From Gemmatimonadaceae bacterium (GTDB lineage Bacteria; Gemmatimonadota; Gemmatimonadetes; Gemmatimonadales; Gemmatimonadaceae): a stretch of DNA of 64,000 nt. A model generated the notes under the pieces. The model was not told the origin of the DNA. It saw only the letters and a list, made by a program, of their open reading frames with translations, and ran no database searches. The first letter of the stretch is position 1. Every line of letters begins with the position of its first letter. The position numbers and the translations under genes are program-made. This document shows positions 21,605 to 37,306 of the stretch, one piece after another. The stretch lies in NCBI GenBank assembly GCA_019637355.1, contig JAHBVT010000001.1:496001-560000 (forward strand), read 5' to 3'.

Positions 21605-22126
21605 TTACGGACCTTTCCCGTCCAGCAGTTCACGGAAACTGGCGAATGCCATCGGGAAGTGATGTGCTTCGAGGATCGCCTTGGCTTGGTCAGCTTCCTC
21701 AATGCTCAAGACACCACACCTGACTATCTGGAGGATAATCCCCGGGGTAGTCACGATCCGGCTCGTGCCGATCTTCTGGATGGCGACCCGCCGGAAATGC
21801 CGGCGCTGATCGGAGCCGAGCAGCCATTCCGCGTCGTTTGCGGCAAGCGCCAGGCACTCGGCTTCACCCTTCCCCATCTCGTCCTTGAGCTCTGCATAGG
21901 TGGCGAAGGCATCCGGCTGCTCGACCCGCACGAGCCGCAAGCTGCCATCCGCAATGGCGCCTTCGATGGCCACACAGTGGCTGCGATCGCGAATCGTATG
22001 GAGCACCGCTTCCGGAAGTACGAACTTCAGCTCGGTCACGAGCGGGGATGCCGCGTAAAGCCCCGTGCGCACGAGGTTCGTGAGGACGTCCGTGTAGAGG
22101 ACGACGGTGCGGGGCACGCGACTCAC
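21605..22126 (-). CDS. PIN-domain-like protein paired with HTH-ImmA/IrrE protein
   Basis: The 173-residue protein overlaps the end of the upstream HTH-ImmA/IrrE gene by 4 bases. The segment GKGEAECLALAANDAEWLLGSDQRR (read here in two parts, GKGEAECLALA and EWLLGSDQRR) has the spacing of the central acidic residues of PIN-fold nucleases. The N-terminus VVLYTDVLTNLV carries the first acidic residue in an atypical context. PIN proteins are usually RNases. Paired with an HTH/metalloprotease protein it resembles a toxin-antitoxin arrangement, but an enzymatically weakened PIN protein is also possible. Confidence 0.65.
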   Translation of the reverse strand: MSRVPRTVVLYTDVLTNLVRTGLYAASPLVTELKFVLPEAVLHTIRDRSHCVAIEGAIADGSLRLVRVEQPDAFATYAELKDEMGKGEAECLALAANDAEWLLGSDQRRHFRRVAIQKIGTSRIVTTPGIILQIVRCGVLSIEEADQAKAILEAHHFPMAFASFRELLDGKGP

Positions 22127-23379
22127 ACGCCGTGCGGAGCGTCGTCTTCCACCCCAGCGGTAGCGATTACGCGGTCTATGTCCTGTTCCCTGACACCTGC
22201 CATCCCCAGCAACTCGACGAGCTTTGGGCGGGTGATTTTCTCGCGGCGATACACCTCAAGCGCGAGGCCGACGAAGCGTGGGTTCGGCGGGGGCGGGGCA
22301 TTGGCGGGTTGCTCTCCCTGATCCTCCAGCTTGAGCAGGATGCGTAGGTCCTCGATGCGGCGTTCCTCGTCCTCCTGCCGCAGGCGCTGCATCTCCGGTT
22401 CGGAGATCAGGCGCAGGTGCTTCAGCCGGAAGATCATCGCGAGCGGGCTCACGCCGAAGCGCTCGGCGAGCTGCATCACGTCGTAGAGCTGGATGTCTTG
22501 CGAGCCGGGTTCGGAGCGACTCTCCGCGACCAGCGCGTCCGATGCATCGGAGCCGTCGAAGATCGCCGCCGAGAGGCGGGAGGGCTGGCCCTTGCCGAGC
22601 TCGGCGACCGATTCGCGCACGCCTTCTTCCGGTAACAAGAACGCACCCGCGAAGGCGTTCGCGCGCATCTCGCGCAGGTTGTCGCGTTCGGAGTGTCGGC
22701 TGACCTGTCCGGGCGTGTCGTGGTCGAGCAGGATGTGCGCGTACTCGTGGGCGAAGGAGAATCGCTGGCGGTTGGCGTGATGTGCTCGGTTGACGGCGAC
22801 GAGCGGGAGGATGGCATTTCCGATCAGCGTGAAGCCCGAAATGTCATCGTCGAGTTCGACCAGCGCCGTGGGCACGCCCTGCGATTCGATCAACTGCGCG
22901 ATGTCGGGCACCGGTACGCGACCTAGGCCGAGCCGTTGGCGCTCTTCCTCCGCGATGCGGTCGCCTTGGCTGATTGCGTCCCAGCGGGTGCCCGGTTGCC
23001 CTAAGTCGTAGTTTGCCACGCCGCGCCGCGTCCGTTCGATTCCTGCCAGCCGCTCGAGGTTCCGGCGTTCTCGGGCGATTGCCAGGCAATCGCGAACCTG
23101 CGGCGGCACGCCGCTGCCCAAGGGTGCGGTCGCGCGGAAGAGTACGCTGAGGGCTTCGTCCTCGTCGAAGGTGGGCTGGAGGAAATCGCGCAGGTCGCGG
23201 CCGACGAGGCGGGCGATGCGTTCGAGTTCGAGGCTGGAGACCTTGCGGTTGCCGGCTTCGATCTGGACAATGGCGGAGCGGGGGATGCCGAGCTCCTCCG
23301 CGAGGTCCGCCTGGGTGAGGTTGGCGGATTCGCGGGCGGTGCGGATGCGGGAGGCGAGCAGGGATTCTGGGGAGGGCAT
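22123..23379 (-). CDS. XRE-family HTH protein with ImmA/IrrE metallopeptidase domain
   Basis: The 418-residue protein has an N-terminal helix-turn-helix (TQADLAEELGIPRSAIVQIE, about residues 22-41) and an ImmA/IrrE zinc-protease domain with FAHEYAHILLDHD (HExxH) at about residues 210-222, followed by RANAFAGAFLLP. I start it at ATG 23379 rather than 23394, because a strong promoter has its -10 immediately before 23394, so transcription would begin between the two. In phages and mobile elements ImmA cleaves the repressor and derepresses the element; fused HTH-ImmA proteins may act as self-contained sensors. It is divergent from cas3 and coupled to a PIN gene. Confidence 0.85.
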   Translation of the reverse strand: MPSPESLLASRIRTARESANLTQADLAEELGIPRSAIVQIEAGNRKVSSLELERIARLVGRDLRDFLQPTFDEDEALSVLFRATAPLGSGVPPQVRDCLAIARERRNLERLAGIERTRRGVANYDLGQPGTRWDAISQGDRIAEEERQRLGLGRVPVPDIAQLIESQGVPTALVELDDDISGFTLIGNAILPLVAVNRAHHANRQRFSFAHEYAHILLDHDTPGQVSRHSERDNLREMRANAFAGAFLLPEEGVRESVAELGKGQPSRLSAAIFDGSDASDALVAESRSEPGSQDIQLYDVMQLAERFGVSPLAMIFRLKHLRLISEPEMQRLRQEDEERRIEDLRILLKLEDQGEQPANAPPPPNPRFVGLALEVYRREKITRPKLVELLGMAGVREQDIDRVIATAGVEDDAPHGV

Positions 23380-23394
23380 ATATCGTTGCAGCAT

Positions 23395-23444
23395 ATGATA
23401 ATAAAATCAGACTCTTGTTGTCAATATACGGATTGATAGTTGAC
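23395..23444. promoter_or_regulatory. Promoter of HTH-ImmA gene with inverted repeat shared with cas3
   Basis: On the minus strand TTGACA (23424 down to 23419) and TATCAT (23400 down to 23395) are spaced by 18 bases, a near-ideal sigma70 promoter reading into the HTH-ImmA gene. GTCAA (23420-23424) and TTGAC (23440-23444) form an inverted repeat overlapping that -35. The right arm begins TTGACT (23440-23445), which could be a weak -35 for rightward transcription toward cas3 at 23560. A repressor bound here could control both directions; that is inference. Confidence 0.5.
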
Positions 23445-23559
23445 TTTTGTCGCATCGTGCAGCTATTTGGTGTGTGATTTCTTTCGCGAGCACCTCCAGG
23501 ATGTTGCGCAGGTCACAGTCGATGGTTGCATTCACGTTGGGTTTTCCGACAGGACTCAA

Positions 23560-26139
23560 ATGAACAGTGGCGTAGGGTTGTCCACTTTCGACGAAGACTT
23601 CAGGCTGCTCACAGGGAATCAGCCCTTCCCTTGGCAGCGCGCACTGTATACGCGCTTTGTCTCCGGTGACTTTCCGAAAGCTTGCGACCTGCCGACCGGT
23701 CTCGGGAAGACGAGCGTCATCGCACTGTGGCTGCTGGCGCTTGTAAAAACCCCCAAGCTGCCCCGCCGCCTCGTCTACGTTGTCAACCGGCGCACAGTGG
23801 TTGACCAGGCCACCGCCGAGGCCGAACGAATCCGGGAACAGCTCGTCGCGGCGGGTGCACAGCACCTGCGTGACGCACTTAGCGCACTGGCTGCCGTGAA
23901 TACGGAGTATCCGCTCGCGATCAGCACGTTGCGTGGTGAATTCGCTGACAATGCGGAGTGGCGGCGCGATCCATCACGCCCCGCCGTCATTGTTGGCACC
24001 GTCGATATGGTGGGCAGTCGCCTGTTGTTTAGTGGTTACGGCTGTGGTTTCCGCAGCAAGCCATTGCACGCGGGTTTCCTCGGGCAAGATGCGCTGCTTG
24101 TGCACGACGAAGCGCATCTCGAACCCGCTTTCCAGTCGCTTCTCACTGCCATCGCCAACGAGCAACAGCGCGGCCGAGACCCCCGTCCGATCAAGGTGCT
24201 CGCGCTCTCGGCTACGAGTCGCACGGAGTCGGACTTCACGCTCGACGAGGCGGATCTCCGCAACGCAGTGGTGAATCAACGGATCCACGCAAAGAAAGGT
24301 CTGCAACTCCATTCTATCGACGATCGAAAGGATCTGCCGGATACTGTCGCCGCAAAGGCTGGGTCGCTCGAAGGAAAGGTCATAGTCTTTCTCTCGTCAG
24401 TGGAGCATGTCGAAAAGTGCGCGCGAGCCCTGCGAAAGGCGAAGAGAAACGTCGCCACGTTGACTGGCACTATGCGCGGCGCGGAGCGGGACGAACTCGT
24501 GAAGCATCCGGTGTTCGCACGTTTCCTTCCGCGACTTGATGCAAGCGTGCAGTTACAGGAAGGCACCGTGTTCCTCGTCGCGACGTCGGCGGGCGAGGTG
24601 GGCATCGACCTGTCGGCTGACCATCTCGTCACCGACCTCCCGCCGTTCGATGCACTCGCGCAGCGGCTGGGTCGTGTCAACCGCTACGGAGAAGGTGACG
24701 CCGAGGTGCACGTGTTCTGCGAGCCGTTGGAGGCGCCTCCGGAGGTGAAGGCCGACGGTGAAGGGGACGACGAAGACGAAGAGAAGCTCGGCAATCGTAA
24801 GGATGACTACGGGCGTGCACGGTACTTCACGAGGGCGCTCTTGGAAGAATTGCCTGTGCGCGGTGATGGGCACTATGACTCATCTCCCGCTGCGCTGCGC
24901 GCGCTCTCTCGTGACAAGCGTCTCAATGCCGCAACGCCCCAGCCCGACATCCACCACGTCGACGCACTGCTGTTCGACCGTTGGTCGTACACCACCATTT
25001 CTGGCCCGCTACCGGGCCGTCCTCCAGTCGCGGAGTACCTTCGCGGTAAAGCCGAATGGGAAGCGCCTCGTACCACTGTCGCGTGGCGCCGCGAGGTAGC
25101 GTGGCTCGGGGCTGAGCACCTCAATGGCGACTCACTCGACGACTTCCTCGCCGACTACCCGTTGCGGAGTCGCGAGACGTTGAGTGACGCCACCAGACGC
25201 GTGGTGAGTCATCTCGAGAAGTTGGCCGTGCGAGACAAGGACGATTCGCGTCTCGCTTGGCTCGTCCGCTATGACCGACCGGCCGAGATCGTGAAGCTCG
25301 GCGAGCTCGTTGATCGCTACGACTCAAAGAAGAACCCGACGCTCGACAACGCGACGGTCGTACTGGCGCCGGAGGTCGGTGGCCTCGACGGGGGATTGCT
25401 CGATGGCGCTGCGGAGTTCGACCAGGCCACCAACTACGATCTCGGCTCCAAGACTGACGAGCGCATCGTCCGTGAGCGGGAGGCCGCCAGCGACCCGCCA
25501 GAGGGTATGCGCCTGGTGCGCGCGGTCAAGCGCACGACCGACGATGATGACGACGTGGAGTGGTGGCATCTCTACACGGCATCACGGCGTGCTGACGATG
25601 AAGGCTCACGTACCAGCTCGAAGGAGTTGCTGCTCGACACCCACCTGCAGCGCACTGGGAAGTGGGCTGCGCGCATCGCCCAACGCCTTGGCCTGCCAGA
25701 AATGCAGTGTATGGCGCTGGCGCAGGCGGGACGCGCGCACGACCTCGGAAAAGGCCGCCGCGTGTGGCAACGTTCCATCCAACGCTTCAAAGAGCCGCCG
25801 CTCGCTAAGGGTCGTATGCAACCGTTGTTGCTCGCTCACTTTCGTCACGAACTGGGTTCGTTGCACGATGCTGATTTCAGCAGCCTGAGCGAAGACGCCA
25901 CGGACCTCGCTATGCATATCGTCGCCACGCACCACGGTCGTGCGCGGCCACACTTCCCCGTTATCGAAAGCTACGATCCGGAGGTCAGCGACACGGATAC
26001 GGCTGGACTAGTGCGCGAGGTGCCGTTGCGATTTGACCGGCTGCAACGCCACTACGGTCGCTGGGGGCTGGCGTGGCTCGAATCGATTCTGCGGGCCGCT
26101 GATGTGCTGGGTTCGGAAGACGACGAGGTGGCCGAATGA
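23560..26139 (+). CDS. cas3: Cas3 helicase-nuclease, subtype I-U/I-G (C-terminal HD)
   Basis: ATG 23560 has AGGA just upstream and gives 859 residues. The superfamily 2 helicase comes first: Walker A in LPTGLGKTS (about residues 44-52), DEAH box in LLVHDEAHLEP (about 182-185), SATSRTES, and motif VI QRLGRVNRYG (about 366-375). The HD nuclease is C-terminal: AHDLGKGRRVWQ (about 725-736), HFRHELGS and ATHHGRARP (about 787-795). The helicase-then-HD order is the reverse of most type I Cas3 proteins and is known for subtype I-U. It unwinds and degrades target DNA after Cascade binding. It overlaps the next gene by 4 bases. It contains one CATG, unlike most backbone genes. Confidence 0.95.
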   Translation: MNSGVGLSTFDEDFRLLTGNQPFPWQRALYTRFVSGDFPKACDLPTGLGKTSVIALWLLALVKTPKLPRRLVYVVNRRTVVDQATAEAERIREQLVAAGAQHLRDALSALAAVNTEYPLAISTLRGEFADNAEWRRDPSRPAVIVGTVDMVGSRLLFSGYGCGFRSKPLHAGFLGQDALLVHDEAHLEPAFQSLLTAIANEQQRGRDPRPIKVLALSATSRTESDFTLDEADLRNAVVNQRIHAKKGLQLHSIDDRKDLPDTVAAKAGSLEGKVIVFLSSVEHVEKCARALRKAKRNVATLTGTMRGAERDELVKHPVFARFLPRLDASVQLQEGTVFLVATSAGEVGIDLSADHLVTDLPPFDALAQRLGRVNRYGEGDAEVHVFCEPLEAPPEVKADGEGDDEDEEKLGNRKDDYGRARYFTRALLEELPVRGDGHYDSSPAALRALSRDKRLNAATPQPDIHHVDALLFDRWSYTTISGPLPGRPPVAEYLRGKAEWEAPRTTVAWRREVAWLGAEHLNGDSLDDFLADYPLRSRETLSDATRRVVSHLEKLAVRDKDDSRLAWLVRYDRPAEIVKLGELVDRYDSKKNPTLDNATVVLAPEVGGLDGGLLDGAAEFDQATNYDLGSKTDERIVREREAASDPPEGMRLVRAVKRTTDDDDDVEWWHLYTASRRADDEGSRTSSKELLLDTHLQRTGKWAARIAQRLGLPEMQCMALAQAGRAHDLGKGRRVWQRSIQRFKEPPLAKGRMQPLLLAHFRHELGSLHDADFSSLSEDATDLAMHIVATHHGRARPHFPVIESYDPEVSDTDTAGLVREVPLRFDRLQRHYGRWGLAWLESILRAADVLGSEDDEVAE

Positions 26140-26879
26140 TCCGCATCAAGGTCGACCTCACTAACCCAGGCCAGTTCTTCGGTTGTTGTGGTGTATTTGA
26201 GCTGGCGCAGCGGCTTTGGCCGGGAGCGACGGCGCACTTTGATGATACGCACTTCGTGGTGTCTCACGGTGACTTGAAGGATCTTGTTGAGGAAACGGCC
26301 AAGGCGTCGATCGAAGCGTTGGAGCCCGCCAATCAGACCTCGTCAGCATTACGACTGGCTGAGCCATTCGACCTGCGACTCGATTGGTGGAAAGTCGAAC
26401 GCGGCCTGAAGACTTGGGCCGGGCGTATGTCGGTCGACCGCATCGCGATGAGCCTTCAGCGAGATCTCCCGAACACGCTGGGCAACGGTTTTTTCGATGA
26501 TGGTCACGTCGTCTTGGGTGCCGACGGCAAGAAGGTTGAACCGTACTATTTCGACGGAAGACGAGGAGCGACCGCGCTGCCGCTCGACGTCGGATTCTCG
26601 TCGGACGCGCTCTCGATGGAAACGGTGGCCTTCAGCGCCACGGAGTTCTTCACATTGGTCGGACTCCAACGTTTCCGTCCTGTTGATGTGAAACTGCGCG
26701 TCTACCAGTATCGTGCATGGCGCGCGTCGTTCCCCGTCACGCTTGCGGCGCTGGCGGCGGCGAACGCACTGCCCGACGGTGGGTCGTTGTTCCAGTTCGA
26801 GAGCGCATTCCGCACTGATCAGCGTAAGCACAAGGCATTCTCACCCGCGATTCCCGTACATGGAGACGGATATGAGTGA
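26136..26879 (+). CDS. cas8u2: Small Cas8-type subunit of the I-U/I-G effector
   Basis: This 247-residue protein lies between cas3 and csb1, the position of the small Cas8 (Cas8u2, also called Cas8g2 or Csb3-like) in compact I-U systems such as that of Geobacter sulfurreducens. The start MIRIKVDLTNPGQFFGCCGV and the segment DLRLDWWKVERGLKTWAGRM are typical of that family, which is too divergent for clear catalytic motifs. Cas8 subunits recognise the PAM and recruit Cas3. The gene overlaps cas3 (ATGA) and csb1 (8 bases), so all four effector genes should be translated from one message. Exact family name should be confirmed by profile search. Confidence 0.8.
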   Translation: MIRIKVDLTNPGQFFGCCGVFELAQRLWPGATAHFDDTHFVVSHGDLKDLVEETAKASIEALEPANQTSSALRLAEPFDLRLDWWKVERGLKTWAGRMSVDRIAMSLQRDLPNTLGNGFFDDGHVVLGADGKKVEPYYFDGRRGATALPLDVGFSSDALSMETVAFSATEFFTLVGLQRFRPVDVKLRVYQYRAWRASFPVTLAALAAANALPDGGSLFQFESAFRTDQRKHKAFSPAIPVHGDGYE

Positions 26880-27957
26880 AACGAAGATTGAGACGTGGCT
26901 CGAAGACTCTGCTGACGCGCCTGCGGCCATCGTGCTGCGCGAGTACCTGACGCCGGTAGAGGGCAAGGACGGCGTCTTCTTTCCGCCGACGTTCGCGGCA
27001 GCCGAGAACTCCAAGGAGTTTCCCGGCGGGTACAATATCAACGAACTGGCCAACGGCGAGAATGTCTGCCTCGTCGATACGGTCGGCTCGCAAGCCAACC
27101 GTATCGAGCCGATGTTCGCGACTGGCGACTACGCGGCGCTTGTGCCGCAACTCGTCGTCGAGGCTGGAGAGAAGCAGGTCAGCATCCTCGATGCAGGTCA
27201 CCGTGCAGGGGACGCGATCGTGCGCTGCACCGAGCTGCAAGACGCGCTGCAGAAGGCGTTCCAATCGCTGAAGAGAGGCGACGCCGTGCCGTTGGCGAAG
27301 CTCGCCCCCACTTCGCTCGTCTTCGGTGTGTGGGATTCGCGCGATACGCAGGCAAAGGCCCCTCGCTTGCTCGCCGCCACTATCCGTGCCTTCAACGTCG
27401 GGAAGCTGACTCGCTCGGCGCAGTACAACCCTGCCGTCGAGTACGTCGAAGAAGGGTTGCTCGACGAGACGGAGAACAAGGAAGCGCTCAAGGCCTACTC
27501 GGAGCGTGGCTTCCGTCACGTGCCGGCGTCAAACACGCACGGGGGTGTCATCGCGAGGGGCGACATCCGACGCGAAGTAACACTTCAGATTGCGGCGCTG
27601 CGGCTCCTCCGCGGTACGACTGACGATGAGACGAAGAAGCTGCGCGCCTACCTGCTGGGGTTGGCGCTGGTTGCCTTCACGAAGCCAGCGGTGGGGTTCT
27701 TGCGCCAGGGCTGCAACTTGGTGCTGGACGGAGACAGGGTGCCGGAATCAACGGTGGTTTTCGCCGACGGTCGACGCGAGAGCTCGGGGCTTACACACCA
27801 TGCGGCACTGGCATTTGCAAAGAAAGCGGCTGCAGCTTTCGGTGTGGGCGAAAGCAAGATGGTCAAGTTCGATACGAAGCTCGCGAAAGACGAGACGACC
27901 GGCGAAGGCAAGAGGGGAAAGAAGGGTAAGAAGATCGAGAAGGCGAAGGCCGGATGA
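26872..27957 (+). CDS. csb1: Csb1, the Cas7 backbone subunit (GSU0053 family)
   Basis: The ATG at 26872 is chosen because GGAG lies 7 bases upstream and the gene overlaps the Cas8 gene by only 8 bases; an upstream in-frame ATG at 26860 is possible. The 361 residues match the GSU0053/Csb1 family: LREYLTPVEGKDGVFFPPTF at the start, SQANRIEP, and KLTRSAQYNPAVEY in the middle. Csb1 is the Cas7 protein that polymerises along the crRNA. The C-terminus is a Lys/Gly-rich tail (about 20 residues) that may contact nucleic acid. It overlaps csb2 by 4 bases. Confidence 0.9.
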   Translation: MSETKIETWLEDSADAPAAIVLREYLTPVEGKDGVFFPPTFAAAENSKEFPGGYNINELANGENVCLVDTVGSQANRIEPMFATGDYAALVPQLVVEAGEKQVSILDAGHRAGDAIVRCTELQDALQKAFQSLKRGDAVPLAKLAPTSLVFGVWDSRDTQAKAPRLLAATIRAFNVGKLTRSAQYNPAVEYVEEGLLDETENKEALKAYSERGFRHVPASNTHGGVIARGDIRREVTLQIAALRLLRGTTDDETKKLRAYLLGLALVAFTKPAVGFLRQGCNLVLDGDRVPESTVVFADGRRESSGLTHHAALAFAKKAAAAFGVGESKMVKFDTKLAKDETTGEGKRGKKGKKIEKAKAG

Positions 27958-29480
27958 GTCGTCACCTCGTGCTGTCTTTCCGTTTCCTCTCGCCGTGGTT
28001 CCACGGGCGGGGAGATGAAGGCGCACCCGAGTGGCCACCTTCCCCGCTGCGCGCGTTTCAGGCAGTGGTAGCGGCTGCGGCGCGCGCTGGCACCTTAGAG
28101 TCGACCCGCGGTGCGCTGGCTTGGTTGGAGCAGCGTACGGCGCCGCTCATTCTTGCTCCCGAAGCCGTTGAGAGTGCTGTGGGCTATCGGCTCTCGGTGC
28201 CGCACAACGCGATGGACATCGTGGGCAAGCAGTGGAACAGGGGCGACGAAGGCAACGCGGCCGAGCACCGGGCAATGAAGAACGTGCGACCGCACAGCCT
28301 GCCGGACGAAGCCGTCGTGCATTTTACGTGGCAGCTTGGGGACGACGTGACCGCCGTACCTGCCCTGATTGCTGCCATTCGCGGCGTTGTGGCGCTCGGA
28401 TGGGGCGTCGACCTTGTCGCGGGCGATGGAGCCGTCGTCGATGATACGCGGCTTGTCGCGATGTCTGCGTCGTTGAAGGTCTGGGAGCCACGCCGCGACG
28501 GACGCCACAATCTGCGCGTACCGGTGAAAGGAACCCTCGACGATCTCGAGAAGCGGCATATGGCGTTTCTGTCTCGTACCAGCCTTACGGACTCGACGCT
28601 GCGTCCGCCGCCAGCGCTGTCCGTATTCGCCATCACGCGTTACGCGCGGAGTGACCACAGGTCGTTGGCAGACGTCGCGGTCTTCTCGTTGATGCGTCCC
28701 GAGTCGGATACCTTCCGTGCCTTCGACACTGTTCGTCGGGGTAAGGTCGTGGCTGGACTGCTGCGCCACGCGGTGCGGAGGGCTGCCGAGCGCGCCGGCT
28801 GGGATGAAGCACGCGTGCATAAATCCGTGCTGGGCCACGGAGATGGCGATGAGGCTCGCCTAGTGCTTGTGCCTGTCCCGAGTATTGAACCGCGAGGCGC
28901 CAACGCTGAGACGCTGGGAGCCGTGAGGCGCGTGATGGTGTTTTCCACCGACACGGACAGCTCAGACACAATGTGGTCCGAGCGAGCACTGGGTGGTATG
29001 GATCTCATCGACGAGGAAACCGGTGAGGTACTGGCCGTACTCGCGGCGACGTCGCCAAATGATCGCGTGCTAAGGCGTTACGTGGCTGAAGCCACGACTT
29101 GGACTACCGTGACCCCCGTCGTGCTGCCCGGACACGACGACCCAGGAGGGCTGCGAGACAAGTTGCGCAAGACAAGGGACAGCGAAGAGCAGCGCGCGTT
29201 GCTCGAACGCCTCAGGAAGCGGCGTGAGGCGTTGGTGCGCAAGGCTCTCCTTCACGCCGGTCTTGGAGATGAACTGGCCTTCTCGGCGAGCATCGAGACA
29301 AGAGAAACGGGTTTTCTCGCGGGTGTTGAGAAGGCTTCGCGTTACGCCGTACCGAGCCATCTCACGGCATCGCCACGGCTCCACGTCAAGCTGACTTGGC
29401 CTGTGAAGGTGGCGGGTCCGCTCTGTATCGGGCGAGGCCGGTTCTCGGGATTGGGTTTGTTCGCGACGGTGGCTACGTGA
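27954..29480 (+). CDS. csb2: Csb2, fused Cas5-Cas6 subunit (GSU0054 family)
   Basis: This 508-residue protein opens with a ferredoxin-like strand containing SRHLVLSFRFLSPWFHGRG and WPPSPLRAFQAVVAAA, typical of Csb2. The C-terminus ends in a Gly-rich loop, GPLCIGRGRFSGLGLF (about residues 486-501), as in Cas6-type RAMP proteins. Csb2 is considered a Cas5-Cas6 fusion: the Cas5 part caps the crRNA 5' handle and the Cas6 part cuts the repeat RNA. The repeats here carry an 8-bp palindrome suitable for Cas6 recognition. It is the last effector gene; vapC converges on it 6 bases downstream. Confidence 0.9.
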   Translation: MSRHLVLSFRFLSPWFHGRGDEGAPEWPPSPLRAFQAVVAAAARAGTLESTRGALAWLEQRTAPLILAPEAVESAVGYRLSVPHNAMDIVGKQWNRGDEGNAAEHRAMKNVRPHSLPDEAVVHFTWQLGDDVTAVPALIAAIRGVVALGWGVDLVAGDGAVVDDTRLVAMSASLKVWEPRRDGRHNLRVPVKGTLDDLEKRHMAFLSRTSLTDSTLRPPPALSVFAITRYARSDHRSLADVAVFSLMRPESDTFRAFDTVRRGKVVAGLLRHAVRRAAERAGWDEARVHKSVLGHGDGDEARLVLVPVPSIEPRGANAETLGAVRRVMVFSTDTDSSDTMWSERALGGMDLIDEETGEVLAVLAATSPNDRVLRRYVAEATTWTTVTPVVLPGHDDPGGLRDKLRKTRDSEEQRALLERLRKRREALVRKALLHAGLGDELAFSASIETRETGFLAGVEKASRYAVPSHLTASPRLHVKLTWPVKVAGPLCIGRGRFSGLGLFATVAT

Positions 29481-29486
29481 CTCCTC

Positions 29487-29882
29487 TCACCCCCACCCCT
29501 CCACCCCCAACCCCGGCACCCGCCGGAACTCCCTCACGTTCCCCGTCGCCACCACCAGCCCGTGCGCCAACGCCGTTGCCGCGATGACGAGATCCCGCTC
29601 ACCGATCGGCGTACCGACGTGCGCCAGCGCGAGTCGTGCGTGCGCGTGATGTTCGGCAGCCTGCTCGTCGAATGGCAGGATTTCGCAGGCGGCAAGGAAT
29701 GTCGCGAGTCGTGCGCGTGCGACCGCTGGGGTATGCCCCCTGATCTCGCCATACCGGAGTTCGGCCAGTGTCATCGAGGCCAGCGTGACGGTGTCTGGTC
29801 CGAGGTCTGCGAAGCGACGCACCGTCGGAAGGTGACCGCGCAGGATATGCACGCAGACGCTCGTGTCGAGGAGATACCTCAT
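29487..29882 (-). CDS. vapC: VapC-type PIN-domain toxin
   Basis: The 131-residue protein has the complete PIN signature: [16 protein letters not shown] with Asp6, TLAELRYGE with Glu, and the C-terminal acidic pair in [16 protein letters not shown] and [10 protein letters not shown]. VapC proteins are Mg2+-dependent RNases, often specific for tRNA or rRNA sites. It overlaps vapB by 4 bases. The module lies on the opposite strand between the effector genes (cas3 to csb2) and the adaptation genes (cas4-cas1, cas2), so loss of either CRISPR half by deletion could also remove the antitoxin source. Confidence 0.93.
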
Positions 29883-30157
29883 TCGTCCTCGAAGTTCACA
29901 TCCGTCCCGCCAGGTGGGAGGGGAGGCGGCACTTCAAAGTCGGCAAACAGGTGTGCATCGGTGAGTAGCCCTTCAATGAAGCCCTCGGGCCACTTGCGCC
30001 GCTGGACCGGCTCAAGAATCACGGCGTTCCCTTCTCGGCGAATCTCCACCTCGTCCCCCTCGAATCGGAATTCCTTGGGTAACCGCACGGCCTGCGACCG
30101 TCCGTTCCAGAAGAGCTTGGCTCGAGCGAGTTTGCTTCGCTGCTCGGAGTCGACCAT
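29879..30157 (-). CDS. vapB: VapB-type antitoxin (AbrB/MazE-fold DNA-binding domain)
   Basis: ATG 30157 has GAGG upstream and gives 92 residues; the open frame continues to 30208 across the operator, which is not coding-like. The segment [20 protein letters not shown] and the following [16 protein letters not shown] are the classic swapped-hairpin AbrB/VagC fold. The C-terminal half is acidic and Pro-rich ([16 protein letters not shown]) and would wrap around the VapC active site. An ideal TATAAT and an inverted repeat lie directly upstream. Confidence 0.92.
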
Positions 30158-30169
30158 CAAAAACCTCGA

Positions 30170-30208
30170 ATTATAGTACGTGATATATACCAGTATATAC
30201 CGTATCAC
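30170..30208. promoter_or_regulatory. vapBC promoter and operator, shared with cas4-cas1
   Basis: On the minus strand a perfect TATAAT (30175 down to 30170) lies before vapB. Just upstream, TATATAC (30184-30190) and GTATATA (30193-30199) form a 7-bp inverted repeat around CA, in the -10 to -35 spacer, as expected for VapBC autoregulation. An outer pair, GTGATA (30180-30185) and TATCAC (30203-30208), overlaps it. The cas4-cas1 start codon is at 30222, so a VapBC complex on this site would also cover any promoter for the adaptation genes. Confidence 0.6.
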
Positions 30209-30221
30209 TGGAATGCGCTAG

Positions 30222-31904
30222 ATGGCAGAATCTCCCGCAACCCTGTCACCCGACCTCGTCCCCGCCCGGATGGTCAACGAGTTCGTCTATTGCCCGCGAC
30301 TCGCATACCTCGAATGGGTGCAGGGCGAGTGGGACGACAACCTTGACACCATCCAAGGCCGGTTCGTGCATCGGCGCGTGGATGACGAGCCCGCCACCGA
30401 TGTCCCGGCACCGGAGGAAGCGGATCCGGAATGTCCGCAGGCGGCGCGCTCGGTGATGCTCTCGTCGCCCGAGCTTGGCGCAATCGCCAGAATGGATCTG
30501 ATGGAAGTCGCGGGCAAGCGCGCGACGCCCGTGGACTACAAGCGCGGTGTGGCGCCGGACCTACCGCAGGGCGCCTATGATCCCGAGCGCGTCCAGCTCT
30601 GCCTGCAAGGCTTAATCCTGCGGGACAACGGTTACGAATGCGACAGTGGCGTGCTCTACTTCGCCGCGTCTAAGACGCGCGTCGAGATTCCGTTCGACGA
30701 CGAGCTGGTCCGCCTGACGCGCGAGTCCGTGGAAGGGCTGCGGAAACTCGGCGAAGGCGGACGGATGCCTCCGCCGCTCGTGGACAGCGCGAAGTGCGTG
30801 CGCTGTTCCTTGGCGGGCATCTGCCTGCCCGACGAGGTGAATCGGCTGGCGCACCCCGAACTCCCGGCCGAGACGCGGCGCTTGGTCCCGGCACGCGATG
30901 ACCGGATCCCGCTCTACGTGCAGGCGCAGGGCGGCACCATCGGCAAGCGCGACGAGCGGTTGAACATCTATGTGAAGGGCCAGCCCACGGAGGAAGTGCG
31001 GCTGATGGAACTCTCGCACGTGGCGGTGTTTGGCAATGTGCAGGTGACGACCCAGGCCTTACGCGCTCTCTGCGACCAGGACACGGCCATTGCCTATCTG
31101 AGCTATGGCGGTTGGTTCTATGGAATGACCACGGGGCTCGGGCATAAGAACGTGGAGCTACGGATCGCGCAACACAGGACCGTCGAGTCAGGTGAGAACT
31201 TGGCGATTGCGCGGGCCTTCGTGTCGGGAAAGATCCTGAACCAGCGTACGCTGCTGCGGCGCAACCTGCCCGAGCGTGACGTCAAGCTCGTCGGCCGCCT
31301 CGCCGTCTATGCTCGGCAGGCGCGGCATATCCCGGAAGTCGCAAGCCTGCTGGGCGTCGAAGGGATGGCTGCGAAACTCTATTTCGAAGGGTTCTCCCGG
31401 TTATTCCGTGGGGCAGGGGCGTGGGCGGGCTCCGTGTTCGCGGCCGCAGGGCGAAACCGCCGTCCACCGCGCGACGAGGTGAATGCCGTGCTGTCGTTCC
31501 TCTACGCGATGCTGACGAAGGACTGTACGCTTGCGGTGCACTTGGTGGGGTTCGATGGGTACCGCGGATTCTATCACGCGCCGAAGTACGGTCGGCCGGC
31601 GCTTGCCCTCGATCTGTGCGAGGAGTTTCGCTCGTTGGTTGCGGATTCGACCTGCATCACGCTCTTCAATCAAGGTGAGGTGACGGCGAAAGATTTCGTG
31701 AAGCGGGCGCGGGGAGTTGCCCTGACCCCCGCTGGTCGCCGCGCCGTGATTGCTGGGTACGAGCGCCGGATGAACCAGTTGGTTACGCATCCCGTCTTCG
31801 GTTACACGATCAGCTATCGGCGGGTGGTCGAAGTTCAGGCGCGCTTGCTGAGGGCGACGGTGCTCGGTGAGGTTCCCGCGTACCGTCCTTTCACCACCCG
31901 GTGA
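30222..31904 (+). CDS. cas4-cas1: Cas4-Cas1 fusion protein
   Basis: The 560-residue chain joins two adaptation enzymes. Residues 1 to about 215 are Cas4: Cys24 in FVYCPR, the RecB-type nuclease residues in RMDLME and PVDYKRG, QLCLQGLILRDNGY, and Cys192, Cys195 and Cys201 completing a four-Cys Fe-S site. Residues about 225-560 are Cas1: VFGNVQVTTQAL, GKILNQRTLLRRN, Glu380 in GVEGMA, His452 in YHAPKYGRP and the acidic DLCEEF (464-469). The fusion is characteristic of subtype I-U, where Cas4 selects the PAM and trims prespacers while Cas1 integrates them. No Shine-Dalgarno is obvious at ATG 30222. All key residues are present, so it should be active. Confidence 0.95.
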   Translation: MAESPATLSPDLVPARMVNEFVYCPRLAYLEWVQGEWDDNLDTIQGRFVHRRVDDEPATDVPAPEEADPECPQAARSVMLSSPELGAIARMDLMEVAGKRATPVDYKRGVAPDLPQGAYDPERVQLCLQGLILRDNGYECDSGVLYFAASKTRVEIPFDDELVRLTRESVEGLRKLGEGGRMPPPLVDSAKCVRCSLAGICLPDEVNRLAHPELPAETRRLVPARDDRIPLYVQAQGGTIGKRDERLNIYVKGQPTEEVRLMELSHVAVFGNVQVTTQALRALCDQDTAIAYLSYGGWFYGMTTGLGHKNVELRIAQHRTVESGENLAIARAFVSGKILNQRTLLRRNLPERDVKLVGRLAVYARQARHIPEVASLLGVEGMAAKLYFEGFSRLFRGAGAWAGSVFAAAGRNRRPPRDEVNAVLSFLYAMLTKDCTLAVHLVGFDGYRGFYHAPKYGRPALALDLCEEFRSLVADSTCITLFNQGEVTAKDFVKRARGVALTPAGRRAVIAGYERRMNQLVTHPVFGYTISYRRVVEVQARLLRATVLGEVPAYRPFTTR

Positions 31905-31908
31905 TCCG

Positions 31909-32202
31909 ATGCGGCACATCTATTTGGTGGCATACGATGTCAGCGAGGACAAGCGCCTGCGTCGCACCTATCGGAAGATGCGCGGTTTCGGCGATGCCCT
32001 GCAGTACTCCGTGTTCCAGTGCAACCTGTCGGATGTGGAGCGGATGAAGATGGTCGAGGCTTTGAGCGGAATCATCAAGCACGACGAGGACCGCGTGATG
32101 ATCGTGGATGTCGGGCCCGTGGACGGCCGCGCCCGTATGGCGTTCGATTATCTCGGGGTACAGCCGGAGGGGGAAGCGGAGCGCGATGCGGTCATTGTCT
32201 GA
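31909..32202 (+). CDS. cas2: Cas2
   Basis: This 97-residue protein starts 4 bases after the cas4-cas1 stop. MRHIYLVAYDVSEDKRLRRT contains the Asp at the end of the first strand, and GDALQYSVFQCNLSD and RVMIVDVG complete the ferredoxin-like fold. It forms the dimer bridging Cas1 dimers in the integrase. Its stop is 181 bases before the first repeat, and that gap is the leader. Confidence 0.95.
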   Translation: MRHIYLVAYDVSEDKRLRRTYRKMRGFGDALQYSVFQCNLSDVERMKMVEALSGIIKHDEDRVMIVDVGPVDGRARMAFDYLGVQPEGEAERDAVIV

Positions 32203-32383
32203 GGCTACGCGAGCGGTGAAGTGGCGTGATGCCGCGCATACCTGCTCGCGTGCGCTAAGTGACGCTCCGGTAGGCACTTGTAATGTGACGTTGCGATCTG
32301 TATGCTTTTTGACAATTGAAAGACCGACCCGCTCGCGGTGTGGGTTGGAAAGTGTTGCCCGCCAAGGGGTTGGGACCCGGGCG
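32203..32383 (+). promoter_or_regulatory. CRISPR leader
   Basis: This 181-base noncoding stretch separates cas2 from the first repeat and would hold the array promoter and the integration signals. It has an AT-rich centre (about 32280-32325). TTGACA occurs at 32309-32314, but no convincing -10 lies 16-18 bases downstream, so the promoter is not assigned. New spacers would be added at 32383/32384. Confidence 0.75.
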
Positions 32384-35300
32384 GTTTCCGTGCTCTGATG
32401 AGCACGGCTCCATTGAAGCCCGTCCTGTGGAACATCGGCGCCACCCGTGGCGTGCTGTGTTTCCGTGCTCTGATGAGCACGGCTCCATTGAAGCAAGGAC
32501 ATCCCGGTCATCGGCGGCGCGCTCGCCGGCGTTTCCGTGCTCTGATGAGCACGGCTCCATTGAAGCTCCTCCGTCCTGATGCCCGGGCTTTCGGAGGCAT
32601 CTATCGTTTCCGTGCTCTGATGAGCACGGCTCCATTGAAGCCGCGTCACCGTGACGTCGCCCAGCGTCAGCGTCACCGTGGTTTCCGTGCTCTGATGAGC
32701 ACGGCTCCATTGAAGCCGCCGACCCTTCGTCGCTGTCGTCATGCCGCCACCGTTTCCGTGCTCTGATGAGCACGGCTCCATTGAAGCTGGCGCGAGTGCT
32801 GAGGACAAGGCGCGACGTGCAGAGTTTCCGTGCTCTGATGAGCACGGCTCCATTGAAGCCGTGACGGATCACGGCTACGGCAAGGCCCAAGGCTCGGTTT
32901 CCGTGCTCTGATGAGCACGGCTCCATTGAAGCGCCGACAAGCTGTTGCGCGAGGTGGACCGCCGCATCGTCGTTTCCGTGCTCTGATGAGCACGGCTCCA
33001 TTGAAGCAGGCGTTCGCGCGTGAGGATTTTACTGGTTCTGCGCGAGTTTCCGTGCTCTGATGAGCACGGCTCCATTGAAGCAGCTGAGTTCTGGCGAGAT
33101 TATCCGGGCGCTGATGGCGTTTCCGTGCTCTGATGAGCACGGCTCCATTGAAGCGGACGCTGGGACGCCGGACGATGGCGCGCAGCCGGAGAGTTTCCGT
33201 GCTCTGATGAGCACGGCTCCATTGAAGCCTGACGCCATCCTTGCTGCGGTGCATCACGACACCGGCGTTTCCGTGCTCTGATGAGCACGGCTCCATTGAA
33301 GCATCGTGCCCCCCGCCCGAAGCGGCGCCGCCTAGGCTCGGTTTCCGTGCTCTGATGAGCACGGCTCCATTGAAGCAACAATATGCGGCGCTTCCGCGTG
33401 GCAGAGATCTCGGGTTTCCGTGCTCTGATGAGCACGGCTCCATTGAAGCGTACCCCTCGACATCAAGCCCGCTTCCGACTCTTTGGTTTCCGTGCTCTGA
33501 TGAGCACGGCTCCATTGAAGCCTGCCCGTCCCCCCGGGGGTCCTCGAGGATGAACGGGTGGTTTCCGTGCTCTGATGAGCACGGCTCCATTGAAGCACCA
33601 ACATCCACAGCGCCCACCACGGGATGTCGATGAGGGTTTCCGTGCTCTGATGAGCACGGCTCCATTGAAGCCAGGTTGTGCCGGAAGCATTCGCCTGCCT
33701 CCCCATTGTTTCCGTGCTCTGATGAGCACGGCTCCATTGAAGCCCTTCGGGGCAGCGGGCAGCCGCGAGCGTACGCTTGGTTTCCGTGCTCTGATGAGCA
33801 CGGCTCCATTGAAGCGACGCCTGCCGCACCTACGTCCGCGCCGCGCTGGCAGAGTTTCCGTGCTCTGATGAGCACGGCTCCATTGAAGCTGTCTCGCTAT
33901 GTGTCGCTGACTCAGACGTGCTCGGTTTCCGTGCTCTGATGAGCACGGCTCCATTGAAGCGGCGCACTGCGGACACGTCGGCAGCGGCGAGGAGCTGTTT
34001 CCGTGCTCTGATGAGCACGGCTCCATTGAAGCACGTACTTCACCTGGCGCGGCGCGCCGGCCGGGTTGCCGTTTCCGTGCTCTGATGAGCACGGCTCCAT
34101 TGAAGCAGGCCGCAGGCCGTGCGCAGCCCGCGCGACCACGTGAGCGTTTCCGTGCTCTGATGAGCACGGCTCCATTGAAGCTCGACGCGGTAGCCTGCAG
34201 CCGACCACGCCACGCCCGTTTCCGTGCTCTGATGAGCACGGCTCCATTGAAGCCGCCTGAGTGTCCACCCCATCGGCGTGCGCCTAGACCTGTTTCCGTG
34301 CTCTGATGAGCACGGCTCCATTGAAGCACCTCCATACCGTCGATGCCTTCGATGATGGCACCGGGTTTCCGTGCTCTGATGAGCACGGCTCCATTGAAGC
34401 CCGATCCCCCGTCAGGCGGTGGACGCAACGCTCTACGTTTCCGTGCTCTGATGAGCACGGCTCCATTGAAGCCTTGCGTGTCCTCCTGCCGCGTGAGCGG
34501 CTTGTCGTTGTTTCCGTGCTCTGATGAGCACGGCTCCATTGAAGCCCTCAGGAAGATTTCGTCGATGCTGCTTCGGTACGCGAGTTTCCGTGCTCTGATG
34601 AGCACGGCTCCATTGAAGCCTGGACCTGAACCTGATGGAGGCGTGGTTCGAGGACCGTTTCCGTGCTCTGATGAGCACGGCTCCATTGAAGCCCTGCCGG
34701 ACATCGCGGACTGGCGGGCGGGGAAGGCGTTTCCGTGCTCTGATGAGCACGGCTCCATTGAAGCTATGCAGGCGGGGTAAGCAGCCCAAACTTCTACGCG
34801 GTTTCCGTGCTCTGATGAGCACGGCTCCATTGAAGCTTGGCCCGCTGCAACAGGTCGTCGCGGACCAGCTCCTGTTTCCGTGCTCTGATGAGCACGGCTC
34901 CATTGAAGCCGACGCGCCCCCGCCACCTGCGAACGAATCGACTACAATGTTTCCGTGCTCTGATGAGCACGGCTCCATTGAAGCGTGAGCGCCGTGGTCA
35001 CGTTGTCCGCCAGCGTCGCGGTTTCCGTGCTCTGATGAGCACGGCTCCATTGAAGCGCTGTTCACGCGCGACGACGACCTCGACCTGCTGCAGGGTTTCC
35101 GTGCTCTGATGAGCACGGCTCCATTGAAGCACGTGGTCCATCACCATGCTGTCGCTGCGCCGCACCAGTTTCCGTGCTCTGATGAGCACGGCTCCATTGA
35201 AGCACGTCGGTATCCGACCCGCTGTTGGTGTACCGCAGGCGTGTTTCCGTGCTCTGATGAGCACGGCTCCATTGAAGCCGCGCGGGCGCTTTCTTCGATG

Positions 35301-37306
35301 CTGCCGACTTCCGAGTTTCCGTGCTCTGATGAGCACGGCTCCATTGAAGCGCAGGACTGCTACAAACCCCCCCCCCTAAATGGCGAGGGTTTCCGTGCTC
35401 TGATGAGCACGGCTCCATTGAAGCAAAGGGGCTGAAACCGGCTTCGGCGCGGTAAGCCAGGTTTCCGTGCTCTGATGAGCACGGCTCCATTGAAGCCCGA
35501 GCATCGCCTTTGCGTAGGCGACCTGACGCGGCGTTTCCGTGCTCTGATGAGCACGGCTCCATTGAAGCCACGTTCGCCCGCACGATGGCAGCCGCGAGCG
35601 GCGGGTTTCCGTGCTCTGATGAGCACGGCTCCATTGAAGCCTTCTGGATGGCGGTGCTGGTCATCGTTACGCGGCCTCGTTTCCGTGCTCTGATGAGCAC
35701 GGCTCCATTGAAGCGCTGCTCGACGCGCAACTCCAGCGGCTCCAGCCTCGTTTCCGTGCTCTGATGAGCACGGCTCCATTGAAGCAACGAAGCAACGTTG
35801 ATCGTTCAGCGTCTCATCTTGTTTCCGTGCTCTGATGAGCACGGCTCCATTGAAGCCGTAAAACACAACGAGAAATGTCGCAACGTGGTCAGGTTTCCGT
35901 GCTCTGATGAGCACGGCTCCATTGAAGCCCACGGCCATCGCGGTGCTTCCGTCGGCGACGACGTTGTTTCCGTGCTCTGATGAGCACGGCTCCATTGAAG
36001 CGTCGCGGGAATCAAAAGCGAAGTTCGGGATGTGACGTTTCCGTGCTCTGATGAGCACGGCTCCATTGAAGCGCGGTGCGCTTGACGCTACCCATCACGC
36101 GCCCGACATCGTTTCCGTGCTCTGATGAGCACGGCTCCATTGAAGCCGCGCCGCTCGCGGGGAGGGGGGGACGTGACGCGACGTTTCCGTGCTCTGATGA
36201 GCACGGCTCCATTGAAGCGCACCTCGACCACCTCGAACCCCTCGCCGTAGGTGATGTTTCCGTGCTCTGATGAGCACGGCTCCATTGAAGCGATGAGGAG
36301 GACCGCACGATTTACGTGAGCGATGTCGTTTCCGTGCTCTGATGAGCACGGCTCCATTGAAGCCCGATGCCTAGGCTTCCGCTGTCGGCCCGTGAGGCGG
36401 TTTCCGTGCTCTGATGAGCACGGCTCCATTGAAGCGCCGCGAAAACACACCTCGGTCGTGCCGGGGGTCGCGTTTCCGTGCTCTGATGAGCACGGCTCCA
36501 TTGAAGCTTGCGCGTCCGCACCACAGGTCTAGGCCCACCGCCCGTTTCCGTGCTCTGATGAGCACGGCTCCATTGAAGCGTGCACATCTTCCGCCCCCTG
36601 CGCCGCGAGCCGCGACCGTTTCCGTGCTCTGATGAGCACGGCTCCATTGAAGCCGCGCCTATGCGAAGTCCGTGGAAGCGGAAAACCCGGTTTCCGTGCT
36701 CTGATGAGCACGGCTCCATTGAAGCCACGAGAAGAAGGCCGGGGATATGGCGCCCAACCCTCGTTTCCGTGCTCTGATGAGCACGGCTCCATTGAAGCTC
36801 GCCCTTATAGACGAGGCGCGACTCGATCTTCGCCGTTTCCGTGCTCTGATGAGCACGGCTCCATTGAAGCCTTGTCGGGTTGGTTATATTGCTCGATAAT
36901 CGCCACGTTTCCGTGCTCTGATGAGCACGGCTCCATTGAAGCATTGAACCCGTGCGCACGTGCCACGCGATGCCCACGGTTTCCGTGCTCTGATGAGCAC
37001 GGCTCCATTGAAGCGACCATCGTGAGGTCCGCCGTCGCCACGAAGTTGAGGGTTTCCGTGCTCTGATGAGCACGGCTCCATTGAAGCGGTCGGCTGCCGT
37101 ACACGATCGTCCCGGAACGGGAGTTTCCGTGCTCTGATGAGCACGGCTCCATTGAAGCGGCGTTGAATAGCGCGCGCGGAACGCATCGGCATATCCAGTT
37201 TCCGTGCTCTGATGAGCACGGCTCCATTGAAGCCCAAGGCGTCGAGTCGCCAGTTGTCACCGCCGGTGTAGTTTCCGTGCTCTGATGAGCACGGCTCCAT
37301 TGAAGC
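32384..37306 (+). CRISPR. CRISPR array: 68 repeats of 36 nt, 67 spacers of 35-39 nt
   Basis: The repeat reads GTTT, CCGTGCTC, TGAT, GAGCACGG, then CTCCATTGAAGC. The two 8-base arms are perfect complements around a 4-base loop, giving a Cas6-type hairpin. I located 68 copies by eye, the first at 32384-32419 and the last at 37271-37306, and saw no variant, including at the distal end. The unit length is 71-75 bases. The orientation (leader beside cas2, repeat ending GAAGC) matches I-U arrays. One spacer contains ten consecutive C (35367-35376). Long open frames on both strands across the array arise because the GC-rich repeats lack stops in most frames; they are not genes. Confidence 0.98.

Follow-up and report, generated by a model that had tools for sequence, protein, structure and literature searches.

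A vapBC toxin-antitoxin module at the effector/adaptation boundary of a type I-G CRISPR-Cas locus, a recurrent site for unrelated toxin-antitoxin cassettes

Toxin-antitoxin (TA) modules are known in the neighborhood of CRISPR-Cas genes in several forms. CreTA modules lie inside cas operons and guard them, as described in the relevant parts of PMC9458426 and PMC10097628. In the type I-G locus of Thioalkalivibrio sulfidiphilus two TA systems are among the five genes between Csb2 and Cas4-1, according to the legend of Fig. 1A in PMC9638904. PIN, HicB and AbrB/MazE genes have been noted near cas genes, and passages of PMC1462988 call toxin genes 'loosely associated' with CRISPR. A hypothesis of immunity-suicide coupling has also been put forward, with stress laid on type III loci in the sections of PMC3506569 that concern it. 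The exchange of CRISPR modules in place, near the adaptation genes, is already known (PMC6452270).

The locus described here belongs to a Gemmatimonadaceae bacterium and lies in a stretch of 64,000 nucleotides, which is called the window below. It is a type I-G (formerly I-U) CRISPR-Cas locus in which cas3g, cas8g, csb1, csb2, a cas4-cas1 fusion, cas2 and an array are all present. The effector operon cas3g-cas8g-csb1(cas7g)-csb2 occupies 23440-29480 on the plus strand, with every gene above the cut-off of its NCBIfam model. The cas4-cas1 fusion (cas4g_cas1g, or cas4-1) is found at 30222-31904 on the same strand (NF049935, 752 bits, cut-off 560) and is adjoined by cas2 (31912-32202, plus strand), recognized by domain and family model matches. 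The array extends over 32384-37306 (plus strand) and comprises 68 repeats of GTTTCCGTGCTCTGATGAGCACGGCTCCATTGAAGC and 67 spacers. A second TA-like pair, divergent and directly upstream of cas3, is located at 21605-23394 on the minus strand. It consists of an XRE/ImmA-IrrE protein that resembles the RmrA models of PADLOC and a PIN-like protein lacking a Pfam match; an XRE/ImmA gene upstream of cas3 is also present in the related locus L052. Both cas transcription units of the window may thus begin beside a divergent TA-like module, the other being vapBC.

Between the end of csb2 at 29480 and the start of cas4-1 at 30222 lies a complete vapBC on the minus strand; here coordinates and family models bear out the original prediction. 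The toxin gene vapC (29487-29882) encodes a PIN-domain protein of 131 amino acids (Pfam PIN, 1.4e-16) whose alignment with the Salmonella/Shigella VapC structures 6ifc and 3tnd runs over the full length and in which the acidic PIN residues D6, E41 and D97 are kept. The closest NCBIfam VapC models, those of tRNA(fMet)-specific VapC, match it below their cut-offs. The antitoxin gene vapB (29879-30157, minus strand) is upstream of vapC, overlaps it by 4 bp (29879-29882) and encodes a SpoVT/AbrB (MazE-fold) protein of 92 amino acids (Pfam MazE_antitoxin, 5.7e-13; NF040493 VapB over cut-off). Among solved structures, the best relative of VapB is the antitoxin of 3zvk. The marks of a type II VapBC, a PIN toxin with its acidic residues and an overlapping upstream AbrB/SpoVT antitoxin, are all present, and a palindromic operator at the vapB promoter is seen at the level of sequence. 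The feature is probably an ordinary and functional vapBC module, from which a toxic VapC and a DNA-binding VapBC complex would be expected. A guard of the CreTA kind, an RNA toxin-antitoxin under the control of the CRISPR effector, has a precedent inside cas operons; at this locus it is so improbable that the identification was rejected, since both vapBC components are proteins, no ectopic or degenerate CRISPR repeat rises above the shuffled background in 22000-32300 (best 20/36, shuffles 20-22) and none of the array spacers matches the vapBC region.

vapB and cas4-1 diverge from a common region of exactly 64 bp, start to start (30158-30221). It contains the palindromic operator TATATAC-CA-GTATATA (30184-30199) with perfect 7-bp arms; this repeat and the length of the gap had both been predicted, and direct reading confirms them. 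The palindrome is absent from all shuffled windows, even at 2 mismatches, and its exact form is a single copy in the 3.15-Mb genome. The TATAAT that had been placed at 30170 is present as well, but it reads on the minus strand (30175-30170) and is therefore the candidate -10 element of vapB and not of cas4-1, a consensus match only with a weak -35 within the palindrome. A vapB message from this element would have almost no leader, since transcription would probably begin at the GAGG ribosome-binding sequence or within it; a transcript start within the palindrome is an alternative possibility. On the plus strand a consensus scan (9/12) gives a candidate cas4-1 promoter, TCGACC-16-TATAGT (30150-30177), with TCGACC at 30150-30155 and a weaker -10-like TATAGT at 30172-30177. 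As this weak site overlaps the vapB -10, transcription in both directions could start from one AT-rich core.

Such a geometry would suit an explanation in which a single bidirectional promoter/operator is common to vapBC and cas4-1 and free VapBC represses both. Degradation of VapB during stress or phage infection would then derepress both, and spacer uptake would rise together with toxin release. The narrow divergent gap, the overlap of the two -10 elements at 30170-30177 and the palindrome only 7 bp further on all fit this explanation, as does the separation of cas4-1 from its usual upstream partners, after which it may need a local promoter. On the other side, the plus-strand promoter is a consensus match only, and the stop codons of csb2 and vapC converge across 6 bp that hold no convincing terminator, so that read-through into cas4-1 is possible. 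Both the sharing of the promoter and the stress-driven step are considered unlikely. The original prediction had a bound VapBC complex covering the region needed to start cas4-1. Since a promoter of cas4-1 placed anywhere in these 64 bp would overlap with the operator, control of cas4-1 by it is possible in the window itself; an origin of the operator for this purpose is not supported, given the VapB homologues found elsewhere.

Most VapB homologues from plasmids and other genomes (L297, L299, L302, L304-L309) are preceded by operator-like half-sites of the form ATATAC/GTATAT or ATATGC/GCATAT. Many of the nearest homologues are plasmid-borne, and their neighbors, where annotated, are ordinary plasmid genes or IS elements. 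Because most of these unlinked homologues carry similar sites, the operator is the module's own and travels with vapB even when no CRISPR genes are near; it therefore did not originate to control cas4-1, which counts against a shared promoter/operator. VapB homologues occur in 6 of the 99 genomes searched, the module's own genome included. None was found in the 16 other genomes of the same genus that were searched, and vapBC was therefore probably acquired horizontally from outside the genus. Only relatives below 60% identity were obtained in a plasmid search with cas4-1, and few carry an annotation as Cas4/Cas1 fusion.

The site of insertion is also a breakpoint between modules. The effector genes of the window match those of the relative G101 at 73% nucleotide identity over 23587-29467, with only patchy similarity beyond. 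cas4-1 and cas2 match another relative, G336, at 74% nucleotide identity over 30249-32202, a match that leaves the effector genes uncovered. vapBC matches neither relative. The two halves of the operon therefore have different closest relatives among the sampled genomes, and vapBC marks the seam between them. In G336 the start of cas4-1 lies only a few bases from the effector gene before it, and in many other loci too cas4-1 abuts the effectors, so the insertion in the window separates genes that are contiguous elsewhere.

The same boundary was surveyed in about 130 further type I-G loci from four sources: the phylum of the window, the GTDB contig collection, the Gammaproteobacteria (the class of genome G397, Thioalkalivibrio locus L122) and the phylum of the Nitrospira genome G403 (locus L077). 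Three loci first taken as I-G (L176, L178, L179) are I-C or uncertain and were left out. The effectors run directly into cas4-1 in about half of the I-G loci, and inserts occupy the junction in the rest. At the effector/adaptation junctions, 49 of 97 gaps measure at least 300 bp, versus 13 of 321 within modules (Fisher p ~7e-25), in a sample whose related loci are not independent and whose GTDB part was limited to the best 80 among at least 577 loci ranked by similarity to the Cas4-Cas1 of the window, and thus biased to cas4-1 sequences that resemble it. The long gaps within modules comprise 11 of 227 effector/effector junctions, several of which hold an unrecognized cas gene, and 2 of 94 between cas4-1 and cas2.

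What fills the junction is largely TA genes. Matches to TA families were obtained for 57 of 116 junction ORFs versus about 6 of 82 ORFs in the upstream flank (p ~7e-11, with the same best 80 of at least 577 loci as GTDB part), the 57 coming from Pfam family tallies on ORFs chosen by codon score and the 6 from reading the flank sequences by eye. The junction families are PIN (12), nucleotidyltransferase (10), Phd/YefM (9), HicB (6), RHH (5), HEPN (4), PemK (3), Rv0078B-type antitoxin (3), MazE (2), ParE (2) and HepT (1). The 12 PIN ORFs at junctions, in roughly 100 kb, are far above the density of PIN genes in 13 of the surveyed genomes, about 4 per Mb. In the upstream flank Fic is the sole TA family with two or more members. 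WYL/WCX-domain regulators dominate there and are the commonest genes upstream of I-G effector operons (11 of the 82 ORFs). The effector/adaptation boundary is a real hot spot for unrelated TA cassettes. Pure insertional tolerance might account for it, small mobile TA cassettes piling up without benefit to CRISPR at the only site in the operon where an insert leaves translational coupling unbroken. In accord with this, the median spacing is -4 bp (an overlap) among effector genes and 4 bp between cas4-1 and cas2, the junction being loose, and some inserts are of non-TA type (Uma2, SLFN/AlbA_2, Fic-like). Tolerance alone would, however, lead one to expect IS elements and random genes in greater number than at a junction where about half of the 116 ORFs match TA families and a single one is a transposase. 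It is a serious contender, though the balance leans away from it.

Pfam-confirmed examples of junction modules are PIN genes with an RHH, Phd or AbrB antitoxin (L048, L078, L085, L093, L096, L128, L129), PemK/MazF (L107, L117 and L122, with RHH in the last), HicB and ParE (L077), Phd-ParE (L085), Phd (L087), HEPN/MNT (L105, L110) and MNT (L118). The original prediction called for vapBC to recur at this position in related loci, and the lack of recurrence that would have counted against it was not seen: TA modules, other types of vapBC among them, do recur at many I-G junctions. An orthologous vapBC was not found in the 19 I-G-type cas4-1 loci examined from the phylum, where a Phd-PIN pair in L048 is the one exception at this place. 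L078 and L171 have the layout of the window, csb2 followed by vapC-vapB on the minus strand and cas4-1, but their antitoxin is RHH-like and not AbrB, so that this layout arose there independently.

A single RHH-MazF family is found at CRISPR junctions in several gammaproteobacterial loci (L107, L111, L117, L122, L265), and the copy in L111 (Lamprocystis) seems decayed. In the phylum of G403 (L077, L081, L212-L233) the junctions hold several TA modules in tandem, with MNT-HEPN, HicB, ParE and a small Rv0078B-type antitoxin together with an AbiEii-like protein. In L077, L081, L220 and L223 a common sequence near TTCTTTGACAACTGAATATTTCCA is located just upstream of cas4-1, a possible promoter or recombination site.

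Type I-C and I-E loci of the same Gammaproteobacteria genomes (L237-L266 and L267-L295, respectively) served as controls, and they exclude a pattern restricted to I-G. A TA module is found upstream of cas1 or cas4 in at least 7 of 30 I-C loci, with the Pfam families ParE, MNT/HepT, Phd/PIN, PemK, HicA and DUF5615; a HicB-like ORF in L241 has no Pfam confirmation. In I-E such a module lies upstream of cas1 in 10 of 29 loci, with PIN, Gp49/HigB, DUF3368, ParE, MNT and DUF5615 as Pfam families. All 10 are confirmed on the strand of cas1, and in most cases the module ends no more than a few tens of bases from that gene. This co-directional arrangement argues against coupling through a divergent operator, as do the I-G loci themselves, where roughly one junction TA module in two is directed towards cas4-1 (e.g., L048, L085, L093, L096, L128, L230, L232) and so has no divergent operator in common with it. 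Independent divergent TA/cas4-1 pairs with short gaps do exist (L078, L171, L107, L122, L168, L077, L220, L223), and L168 has a palindrome with 11-bp arms, which speaks for coupling. Because orientation is mixed across loci, the shared operator of the original prediction does not serve as a general cause.

The favored explanation, held to be likely, is that a self-regulated vapBC was acquired horizontally at a junction of module exchange, where it is tolerated and probably stabilizing. vapBC would have inserted at the effector/adaptation boundary of the I-G operon after horizontal acquisition, and VapBC would bind its own palindrome and repress vapB. The insertion would have cut cas4-1 off from the effector operon, leaving its expression to read-through antisense to vapCB or to a promoter within the 64-bp gap; in the latter case VapBC binding would affect cas4-1 too. 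Persistence would follow from a boundary that tolerates inserts, from its being a site of CRISPR module recombination and from a self-contained TA cassette that penalizes loss of the surrounding DNA. Guarding of the locus by vapBC is plausible. Stabilization so understood includes tolerance and goes further, the main sign of something more being the single transposase among the 116 ORFs. TA modules are also common in defense islands. This habit, seen in the TA modules of some upstream flanks (L062, L067, L076, L138), weighs against the favored explanation, and so do the bias and relatedness of the I-G sample, the unequal ways in which the 57 and the 6 were counted and the chance that the junction is simply the spot where inserts do least harm. 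More tentatively, TA modules may be recruited to the boundary in types I-C, I-E and I-G to hold the modules together or to set the expression of the adaptation genes; recruitment of so many unrelated families would, with the same reserve, be a protein-based counterpart of CreTA. If true, recruitment to the CRISPR seam would help to explain why modular loci hold together although loss and module exchange are frequent, and TA autoregulation could make spacer uptake respond to stress or infection. With this pattern, the speculative connection of TA systems with CRISPR can be put to a direct test in ordinary laboratory strains that have type I-C, I-E or I-G loci.

A general hot spot across families and subtypes seems undescribed beyond the remark on T. 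sulfidiphilus, a provisional statement drawn mostly from non-subscription literature. That remark, in the part of PMC9638904 where it stands, concerns one species and claims no pattern, and discusses neither families nor operators. The relevant sections of PMC1462988 and PMC3506569 likewise describe no boundary-specific hot spot, and those of PMC3506569 describe immunity systems as being without typical antitoxins, whereas the junction modules carry their own. Like CreTA, as presented in the parts of PMC9458426 and PMC10097628 on its components, the TA module of the window lies within a cas locus whose loss it could penalize; CreTA pairs an RNA toxin with a crRNA-like antitoxin acting via Cascade, whereas the window has two proteins and no ectopic repeat. 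With the VapBC of Salmonella/Shigella and VapBC2 of R. felis it shares the gene order, the 4-bp overlap, the PIN toxin, the AbrB-type antitoxin and a palindromic AT-rich operator over the promoter. Unlike them, it lies inside a CRISPR-Cas operon, divergent from cas4-1.
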